Origin: Nitrospiria bacterium
Lineage (GTDB): Bacteria > Nitrospirota > Nitrospiria > JACQBZ01
Reading direction: 5' to 3'
Assembly: GCA_035498035.1 (NCBI GenBank)
Contig: DATKAN010000025.1
Span: forward strand, 81,190-145,189
Length of the DNA: 64,000 nucleotides
The translations under genes were made by a program, and so were the position numbers. Shown here one piece after another: positions 11,194 through 48,505 of this stretch (the stretch's first letter is position 1; each line of letters starts with the position of its first letter). The notes below the pieces were generated by a model that was given only the letters and a program-made list of their open reading frames with translations, was not told the DNA's origin and did not search any database.

Positions 11194-11997
11194 TTATTTC
11201 TTATCTTTTTTCTGGGCGCGTTCCTGCTCGCTCTTGTAGGCCTTGACGCTCAAGGCGATCTTGCGTTCCGGAATGTCCATCTTGATGATCTGGGCGCGAA
11301 TGACATCGTTTACCTGCATGGCATCCCCGATCCGGGAGGACGGCTCGATGCCCGTTTCACTGACATGGATCAGCCCTTCCACCCCGTCCTCCAATTCGAC
11401 GAAGACGCCGAAATCCGTCACCTTGACGACCCGGCACTTCACCACGTCGCCGACCCGGTATTTCTCGGCGATCCCGGTTTCCCACGGATCGGATTGAAGC
11501 TGCTTGTAGCCGAGGGAGAGGCGTTCCTTTTCCTTGTCCACTTTGAGAACCACCGCCTCGACCGCCTGGCCTTTCTTAAACAACTCGGAGGGATGGGTCA
11601 GGCGCTTGGTCCAAGACATGTCCGAAATATGGATCAGACCGTCGATCCCTTCTTCCAGTCCCACAAACGCCCCGAAGTCGGTCAGCCCCTTGATCTTGCC
11701 GGTGATCCGGCTCCCGACCGGATATTTGCCTTCGACCGCGCTCCACGGATTCGGCGTCACCTGCTTCATGCCCAGCGAGATCTTGCGATTCTCGCGGTCC
11801 ACCATCAGGACGACCACCTCCACATGATCTCCGACCGAAACCAGTTTGGAGGGATGGCGAACCTCGTGGCTCCAGGACATCTCCGAGATATGAACCAGGC
11901 CCTCGATGCCGGCCTCGAGCTCCACGAAGGCGCCGTAATCCGTGATGCTCACGATTTTCCCTTTGAGCCGGGTCCCGACGGGGTATTTCTCCTCCAC
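11194..11997 (-). CDS. rpsA: Ribosomal protein S1, C-terminal half (domains 4-6), separated from the first half by an amber codon
   Basis: Three S1 RNA-binding domains (roughly residues 5-75, 92-162 and 178-250 of this part), followed by a basic tail. It is in the same frame as the upstream half and only 7 sense codons lie between the TAG at 12019-12021 and the GTG used here. Together the two parts make a six-domain S1 of about 551 codons, the usual length in Gram-negative bacteria. If translated alone, it would start at the GTG at 11997, with only a weak GGGGA before it. Either an assembly error, a true nonsense mutation, or readthrough would explain it; see the finding. Confidence 0.75.
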   Translation of the reverse strand: MEEKYPVGTRLKGKIVSITDYGAFVELEAGIEGLVHISEMSWSHEVRHPSKLVSVGDHVEVVVLMVDRENRKISLGMKQVTPNPWSAVEGKYPVGSRITGKIKGLTDFGAFVGLEEGIDGLIHISDMSWTKRLTHPSELFKKGQAVEAVVLKVDKEKERLSLGYKQLQSDPWETGIAEKYRVGDVVKCRVVKVTDFGVFVELEDGVEGLIHVSETGIEPSSRIGDAMQVNDVIRAQIIKMDIPERKIALSVKAYKSEQERAQKKDKK

Positions 11998-12018
11998 CCG
12001 TCCCCAGGGATCGGGCGT

Positions 12019-12849
12019 CTATTGCTTGAGTCCGAGGGAAACGCGGCCGGTTTCTTTGTCATATTTCAGGACGACCACGCCGATCCGGTCGCCCACCGAC
12101 AGGATCTCGGAAGGATGGTTCACCCGCCCCCAGGACATATCCGTGATGTGGAGCAGACCGTCGATCCCGCCCAGATCGATGAAGGCCCCGTACTCCGTAA
12201 TGTTCTTGACCATTCCATCGATGAGCTGCCCGTCCTCCAGCGTCGCCATGGCGGCGCGGCGTTTCTTGTCCCGCGACTCCTCCAACAGCACGCGACGGGA
12301 GACGACGATGTTTCCCCGGCGGTGGTTCATCTTGATAATCTTCATCGGAAAGGTTTTGCCGACCAGGGCGTCCAGGTCGCGCACCGGATGCAGGTCGATC
12401 TGCGAGCCCGGCAGAAAGGCCTTGACCCCGATGTCCACCATCATCCCGCCCTTGACTTTTGAGACCATCTTGCCATCGACGACCTCTCCTTTCTCGAAGG
12501 ACTTCTCCAAGACTTCCCAAACCTTCATCTTGGCCGCCTTCTCCTTGGAAAGGATGAGGTTCCCCTCGTTGTCCTCGCGCTCTTCCAGATAAACCTGGAT
12601 CCGTTCCCCGACCTTCAGGGCCGCGATCTCGGCCGAGCTGAATTCACCGGCGGGGATCAGCCCTTCGGATTTGTAGCCGATATCCACCACCACGCCGGCC
12701 TGTTGAACGGCCACCACCGTCCCCTCGACGACCCCTCCTTCCTTTAAATTTTTAAACGATTCCTCATAGAGGGCGTGCATATTCATCGGGAGCTCTTCGT
12801 TCGGCGCCCCTGCGGTCTTGGTGGTCGGTGCTTCTTCCGAAAACGTCAT
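12019..12849 (-). CDS. rpsA: Ribosomal protein S1, N-terminal half (domains 1-3), ending at an in-frame TAG
   Basis: 276 aa. S1 domains at about residues 36-104, 122-188 and 206-276. Domains 1 and 2 are the ribosome-anchoring pair, domain 3 begins the mRNA-binding series. Ends GRVSLGLKQ then TAG, where a normal S1 continues (compare the domain 4-5 junction of the same protein, GMKQVTPNPW, with GLKQ-stop-TPDPW here). Start ATG is supported by the MTFSEEA.. leader and an AAGGGGAT box. A promoter lies just upstream, inside the end of plsC. Confidence 0.85.
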   Translation of the reverse strand: MTFSEEAPTTKTAGAPNEELPMNMHALYEESFKNLKEGGVVEGTVVAVQQAGVVVDIGYKSEGLIPAGEFSSAEIAALKVGERIQVYLEEREDNEGNLILSKEKAAKMKVWEVLEKSFEKGEVVDGKMVSKVKGGMMVDIGVKAFLPGSQIDLHPVRDLDALVGKTFPMKIIKMNHRRGNIVVSRRVLLEESRDKKRRAAMATLEDGQLIDGMVKNITEYGAFIDLGGIDGLLHITDMSWGRVNHPSEILSVGDRIGVVVLKYDKETGRVSLGLKQ

Positions 12850-34239: not shown

Positions 34240-37083
<2,844 letters not shown>

Positions 37084-37091
37084 CGGGTCCC

Positions 37092-37107
37092 TCAAACGGC
37101 CGTTTGA
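37092..37107. promoter_or_regulatory. Perfect 16-bp palindrome at the uvrA start site, possible operator
   Basis: TCAAACGGCCGTTTGA, symmetric in every base, located between the uvrA -10 box and the ATG and covering the expected transcription start. Position and symmetry fit a repressor site; LexA control of uvrA is common, and the AAAC...GTTT half-sites recall, but do not equal, the GAAC-N4-GTTC type. Confidence 0.45.
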
Positions 37108-37114
37108 ATTTTGT

Positions 37115-37144
37115 AGTATACCATGTCCGGGTTTCCGCCGTCCA
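37115..37144 (-). promoter_or_regulatory. Promoter of uvrA
   Basis: Minus strand TGGACG (37139-37144), 18 bp, TATACT (37115-37120). Its -35 box is 4 bp from the -35 box of the divergent ubiE promoter. Confidence 0.5.
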
Positions 37145-37148
37145 CCCA

Positions 37149-37177
37149 TTGACAACGGCCTCCAATGGTGTTACCAA
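37149..37177 (+). promoter_or_regulatory. Promoter of the ubiE-like gene (leaderless type)
   Basis: TTGACA (37149-37154), 17 bp, TACCAA (37172-37177). The expected start coincides with the ATG at 37184. No Shine-Dalgarno is present. Confidence 0.5.
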
Positions 37178-37183
37178 TACCCG

Positions 37184-37924
37184 ATGCAGCCGGTTGCCTC
37201 CTTGCCCACCGCACCCCAAAAAGAACGGGCCGTGCAAAAAATGTTTACCGCGATCGCCCACCGCTACGACCTCAACAACACCCTTCTCTCGCTCGGTCTT
37301 CACCATGCCTGGAAGCGGGAAGCGGTCCGGATCAGCGGGGCGGCCGGGGGCGACACCGTCCTCGATCTTTGCACCGGCACGGGGGATCTGGCCGTTTTGC
37401 TGGCCCGACAGGTCGGACCCGAGGGACAGGTGATCGGACTGGACTTGAATGAACGGATGCTTCAATATGGTCGGCGGAAGATCGAACGGCTGAGGCCAAA
37501 CGGAAATGTCACGCTGCTCCGGGGAAACGCCGAATCGATTCAGTTCTGCGACCGGACCTTTCAGGTCGTCACCGTGGCGTTTGGAATACGCAATGTGGCC
37601 GATATCCCGGCGGCGTTGGGCGAAATGTTTCGCGTCTTAAAACCGGGCGGACGGGCCGTCTGCCTGGAATTTTCCCGTCCCACCAGCGCACCTTTGCGAA
37701 AAATGTATGACCTCTACTCGTTCACCATCCTTCCCCGGATCGGAAGGCTGGTCTCGCACGATCACACCGGAATCTACGACTATCTCCCGGCTTCGATTCG
37801 GGCCTTTCCGGATCAAGAACGGCTTAAGACTTTATTCTCGGAGACGGGTTTTTCCCCTGTATCGTATCGAAACCTCACCGGCGGAATCGTGGCGATTCAT
37901 ATCGGAGTCAAACCGGCCCTGTAG
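37184..37924 (+). CDS. ubiE: Demethylmenaquinone / ubiquinone C-methyltransferase
   Basis: 246 aa. Methylates the ring carbon of demethylmenaquinone or the ubiquinone precursor. [29 protein letters not shown] (residues about 17-45), motif [41 protein letters not shown] and [17 protein letters not shown] are diagnostic for UbiE/MenG. The open frame runs back into uvrA in another frame; the start is set at the ATG next to the promoter. Its TAG stop is inside a 30-bp palindrome. Confidence 0.92.
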
Positions 37925-46681: not shown

Positions 46682-48505
46682 TCAAGGCAGGTCCGAAAGT
46701 TTTTTGTCTTTCAAACCGTTCTGCAAGGTCGAATCCATTAAACGTTCTGCCAGATGAACCGTGCTCTTATCTAGTTGTTCGATTCGTTCCCGGATGAGCC
46801 GGTGGTCGTTTTCCTCCATTGACCTCTTCAGGTCGATGATCCGGTCTTGAATCCGCCCCCGCTCTTCCGGCGCGACCAGGTGCTCCGCTCGTCGCAGCGC
46901 GCGTTCGGTATGAGCCAGAATCGTGGCGGCTTCGTTCCGAGCCTCGATTAATAAACGGGCCTCCATATCGCTTTTGGCAAACGTGAAGGACTCCTCGATC
47001 ATCCTCAACACGTCGTCATCGCTGAGACCGTAGGAGGGTTTCACCTCAACGGAATGCTCTCGGCCGCCGCGCAGATCTTTCGCGCTCACGTGAAGAATCC
47101 CATTGGCATCGATCGTAAAATTGACTTCGATCCGCGGCATGCCCGCCGGCAAAGGATCGAGATCTTTGAGCTGGAATCGCGCGAGGCTGCGATTATCCTT
47201 GACCAGTTCCCGTTCCCCCTGATAAACGTGGATGTCCACGGAACGCTGACCATCGACGAACGTTGTGAAAAGTTCTTTTGCGTTGGTTGGGATCGTGCTG
47301 TTTCGCGGAATCAGAACGCTCATCACGCCGCCCATGGTTTCAATCCCGAGCGACAGGGGCGTCACGTCCAGCAAGAGCATGTTCTGGATGCCGCCCGCCA
47401 GGATATCGGCCTGGACCGCTGCACCCATGGCGACCACTTCATCCGGATTCAATTCGGAGTGGGGCGTCTTTTGAAAAAATTCCTGAACCAATTGGCTCAC
47501 CAATGGCATGCGCGTCGCACCGCCGACTAAAACAACCTCGTCGATCTCTTTCAACGACAAATGCGCGTCCTCCATGGCCTGTCGACACGGGCCGATGGTT
47601 AAATCGATCAGATCTCTGACCTTCGACTCGAGCTCACTTCGTTTCAGCGGGCGGCGGTAAACAACCCCCTGCTTTAGGGATATGACAATTTCGGTCACTT
47701 CTTCGGTCGATAGTTGCCGCTTGGCTTTTTCCACCCCCAAGCGAATTTGCTGAATCGATTCCACATCCTCTTGGAGATTCTGCCCGAATTCAACCCGGAT
47801 TTCTTGCAGAACCAGCTCCATAAGTCGCTGATCAAGGTCATCCCCGCCTAAATGAGTATTTCCATTGGTGGCCAGAACTTCAAAGATCCCGTCCTTGACT
47901 TTCAGGATGGAGATATCAAAGGTTCCGCCCCCGAGATCGTAAACCGCGATCACACCCTGCTTTTTCTTCTGGAGGCCGTAGGCCAGGCAAGCCGCCGTGG
48001 GTTCGTTCACAATACGTAAGACATCCAACCCGGCGATCCGTCCCGCATCCTTGGTCGCTTGTCGCTGGCTATCATTGAAGTAGGCCGGCACCGTGATGAC
48101 GGCCTGTGTAACCTTCGTCCTTAGAAATTCCTCCGCCCGGTGTTTAACTTCCTTAAGAATGAGGGCCGACAGCTCGGGCGGGGTCAACCGGTATGGGCCC
48201 AATTCGACTTGAATGATTCCGGGTTGCTTCTCGGTCAGAGAGACGGGAAAGTACTTGCGCTCTTCCTGAACATCGGTTAGCCCCTTCCCCATTAAACGCT
48301 TGACCGAATAAATCGTCGATTGCGGATGGGTCATCAATCGTTGTTGGGCCCGTTCCCCGACCATCCAACCTTGCTCATCGACCGAGATCACGGACGGGAC
48401 GAGCGTCCGTCCCTCGCGATCCGCAATGACTTTCGGCTCTTTGCCGTTCATAATCGCGACGAGGCTATTGGTCGTGCCCAAGTCAATTCCCACAATCCTT
48501 GACAT
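46682..48505 (-). CDS. hscA: Fe-S cluster chaperone HscA (Hsp70 type)
   Basis: 607 aa. Hsp70 family: [49 protein letters not shown] and [13 protein letters not shown], then a substrate-binding domain. Shorter C terminus than DnaK, as in HscA. Transfers clusters from IscU, contacting the LPPVK motif. Located after hscB and before fdx in the standard isc order. Confidence 0.95.

Follow-up and report, generated by a model that had tools for sequence, protein, structure and literature searches.

The rpsA locus and its internal TAG codon

In the window, i.e., the whole stretch of 64,000 nucleotides that was analysed, the gene rpsA, encoding ribosomal protein S1, was located at 12849..11194 on the minus strand. 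The position agrees with that given in a preliminary description of this DNA, while the strand had to be corrected to minus. Translation of the minus strand revealed one six-domain frame interrupted by a single TAG at 12021..12019, which confirms the earlier observation of a lone amber codon at the junction of S1 domains 3 and 4. No frameshift and no other stop were found inside the frame. The first piece comprises 276 residues with three S1 domains and the C-terminal end ...VSLGLKQ, and the frame continues past the TAG with TPDPWGRVEEKYPVG..., three further S1 domains, and a TAA. The read-through product matched the TIGR00717 rpsA profile over positions 11-516 of 516 with 650.5 bits (cut-off 577) and contained six PF00575 domains, although the frame of this TIGR00717 gene is not uninterrupted, due to the single TAG. 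The features of the locus are as follows:

11194..12849, minus strand: rpsA for ribosomal protein S1, one frame of six OB-fold S1 domains interrupted by a lone TAG (translation; TIGR00717 and six PF00575 matches on the read-through product)
12022..12849, minus strand: first piece, 276 codons, S1 domains 1-3 (translation, PF00575)
12019..12021, minus strand: in-frame TAG, with lysine AAG/AAA at the equivalent codon in 75/75 relatives read (translation, comparison)
11995..11997, minus strand: GTG, the earliest possible restart codon past the TAG, eight codons on (sequence)
11194..12018, minus strand: codons past the TAG, S1 domains 4-6, with persisting purifying selection (PF00575, substitution counts)

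The break exactly at a domain junction, together with a GTG eight codons past it, would be consistent with a real two-piece S1, in which domains 1-3 and 4-6 are separate proteins and translation of the second restarts at GTG 11997. However, a single coincidence with a domain junction carries little weight, and this GTG is weak and inherited, with plain coding sequence 5' of it (CTGGGGACGG) in which no good ribosome-binding site is recognizable. Moreover, a protein of domains 4-6 would be devoid of the N-terminal ribosome-binding domains, the local RNA fold at the stop was no better than those of shuffled sequences, and the promoter and terminator scan uncovered nothing informative at this stop. 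No sign of adaptation to a divided protein was detected, and a two-piece S1 is considered highly improbable.

Codon identity in relatives and selection on the two halves

The equivalent codon was read in 75 relatives, comprising 74 loci from the genome collection (the junction was missed by the search pattern at 6 of 80 loci) and one further same-genus genome. The closest records were Nitrospirota metagenome-assembled genomes, several of them from groundwater. Lysine, encoded by AAG or AAA, occupied the position in all 75, including two same-genus genomes whose S1 proteins were 95-96% identical to the one studied here, indicating that, of all the genomes read, this one alone has the TAG. At this position the window has CAA TAG ACG and the rpsA of its nearest relative CAA AAG ACG, so the two are separated by one base (AAG to TAG). 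This comparison with the rpsA genes of relatives, which had been proposed earlier, also showed that TTG, the sense codon suggested at the time, was wrong. Apart from the one codon that is TAG here and lysine in the relatives, the gene conforms to the six-domain S1 (TIGR00717) of Nitrospirota in its length, domain order, and single copy.

Codon changes on this genome's own branch were counted by simple parsimony at sites where both same-genus genomes agree, and the counts are small. Synonymous changes numbered 21 in the half before the TAG and 27 in the half after it, and non-synonymous changes 8 and 4, respectively (Fisher test between halves not significant, p = 0.20). The four past the TAG were V>L, P>A, I>V, and I>V, and no indels occurred there. 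The half past the TAG is thus constrained as strongly as the half before it, and a decayed pseudogene or relaxed selection beyond the TAG was ruled out by this pattern. As about 90 non-synonymous changes past the TAG would be expected without constraint against the 4 observed, the unconstrained share of the branch can be no larger than about 7-10%, which means that full-length S1 was needed for nearly the whole history of the lineage.

Reading of TAG in this genome

The decoding of TAG was surveyed in stretches totalling 579 kb, about 22% of the genome. There, 64 of 322 long ORFs (about 20%) terminate at TAG. Release factor 1 was intact (533.7 bits against a cut-off of 423.25) with both its PVT and GGQ motifs. 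A common TAG stop and a normal release factor 1 rule out global reassignment of TAG, in line with the preliminary description. Insertion of pyrrolysine was likewise rejected, as matches to the pyrrolysyl-tRNA synthetase PylS lay far below the cut-off. Genes ending in TAG differed from their counterparts in relatives by short C-terminal lengths, never exceeding a few dozen codons if the end was readable. A run-on of such genes in relatives was therefore dismissed, and the same short differences accompany TAA and TGA.

The constraint persisting past the TAG could also be accommodated if the TAG were real but tolerated, a suppressor tRNA or natural readthrough inserting an amino acid and thereby providing enough full-length S1. 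A tRNA with a CUA anticodon was found among neither the 42 tRNAs nor the 16 pattern matches, but the recovered set was incomplete, so its absence is unproven and a suppressor may have gone unassembled. Specifically, tRNAs for Tyr and several species for Thr, Gly, Ala, and Ile were missing from the recovered set, a gap that probably reflects unassembled repeat-rich clusters. Several lines of evidence nevertheless speak against tolerance, namely the PylS result, the normal release factor 1, the frequent use of TAG as a terminator with only short C-terminal differences at TAG-ended genes, the lack of any further gene with an in-frame TAG in the 579 kb, and the lack of a stop at this codon in all 75 relatives read. 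Suppression or readthrough is consequently regarded as improbable, though less so than a two-piece S1. Neither suppression nor a two-piece S1 is supported, as positive evidence was absent for both.

Origin of the TAG codon and assembly setting

Considering that no other sign of a split S1 or of TAG decoding was present in the genome, the TAG would most likely represent a single-base assembly error or, at the most, a mutation of very recent origin. As judged from these sequence comparisons, the organism probably harbors an intact S1 of six domains; the TAG at 12021..12019 would then be a one-base consensus error in a draft assembled genome. The protein made would be of ordinary full length, and we infer a sense codon in the reads, or in the majority of cells in the population. 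Assembly error, two-piece S1, and readthrough had originally been listed with no choice made among them; the first is now favoured, and the other two lost ground, with neither adaptation nor a suppressor tRNA found.

False internal stops have been documented in bacterial assemblies where coverage or read quality was low (PMC11017572). The spurious internal-stop pseudogenes described there resemble the present case in that an isolated single-base stop lies in an otherwise constrained gene. In those assemblies the artefact was tied to read coverage, whereas here it is deduced from comparison, which drew on a single genome of this species and on a stop-codon and frame survey of about 22% of its length. 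The substitution error rate needed is approximately 6e-5 (95% range 1.5e-6 to 3e-4) per base, corresponding to one nonsense change in about 510 kb of coding sequence at an assumed coding density of 88%. Singling out rpsA among many genes is in itself a selection effect.

The next candidate is a real nonsense allele of very recent origin, either fixed or frequent among the cells sampled, for which one base change would suffice. In such cells S1 would consist of domains 1-3 alone and bind the ribosome via its N-terminal domains, and growth would be poor. A stop here would equal a deletion of domains 4-6, and Escherichia coli truncated at this exact junction still grew, albeit extremely slowly, while removal of domain 3 as well was lethal (PMC3858243). 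Furthermore, natural three-domain S1 proteins are present in Cyanobacteria (PMC6705787), showing that a short S1 is possible in principle. In contrast, amber mutations or deletions of rpsA have been reported as lethal in E. coli (PMC8305250, PMC5762825), including the amber mutants of Kitakawa and Isono 1982, to the extent described where that work is cited in PMC8305250. Given the very slow growth of the truncated strain and the reported lethality, a heavy fitness cost is expected, and it is improbable that most cells carry the stop in rpsA. It should be borne in mind that the E. coli alleles were made in the laboratory and checked by experiment, whereas the TAG studied here is the consensus base of an assembled genome. 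The half past the TAG also shows no decay, and neither a compensating second rpsA nor an alternative allele on another contig was found in the genome, where the remaining S1-domain matches belong to different long ORFs. A young allele and the truncated S1 it entails are both rated unlikely, yet a nonsense allele that is very young or confined to a minority of cells ranks second, after a consensus error.

There is only a slight chance, lying between those given to the young allele and to readthrough, that a natural bacterium lives with an amber codon in its sole rpsA, by means of a three-domain S1 in a six-domain lineage or an unassembled suppressor tRNA. If true, a natural population would carry an essential translation gene that is split or suppressed at an amber codon, and the case would bear on the number of S1 domains needed in a six-domain lineage. 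For now, its main value is as an example of why lone stops in essential genes should be checked first against reads and relatives.

With regard to the assembly, the genome is a 2.67 Mb draft of 67 contigs with an estimated completeness of 98.96%. Two features of the site count against a consensus error: the TAG lies in the middle of a contig (93,208-93,210 of the 223,858-base contig C25), and the sequence around it has a clean alignment to the same-genus sister genome that spans the site without a break. A dicodon scan of the 579 kb identified the TAG in rpsA as the sole stop that strong coding sequence crosses without interruption and that has no ATG close by. Gene-by-gene comparison of contig C25 with the same-genus genomes flagged 11 of the 106 comparable ORFs of the genome G001, and position-specific substitution counts indicated that most of these were antisense ORFs or differences in start or end. 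The TAG in rpsA was the sole clear mid-gene nonsense change on the contig, with one ORF of 112 codons ambiguous. Neither the scan nor the comparison of genes supports an assembly that is error-ridden overall, and the lack of a second clear mid-gene nonsense change counts against a consensus error to that extent.

The ambiguous ORF lies outside the window at C25:39698-40030, where TGA replaces Trp at codon 48 of the 112-codon ORF of G001. Its substitution pattern could be that of coding sequence, and it may represent a second disrupted small gene or no gene at all. Within the window, a 325-codon ORF at 36947..37924 on the plus strand has a counterpart in G001 (contig C37, about 47458-48428) that is divided between two frames, suggesting a frameshift in G001.
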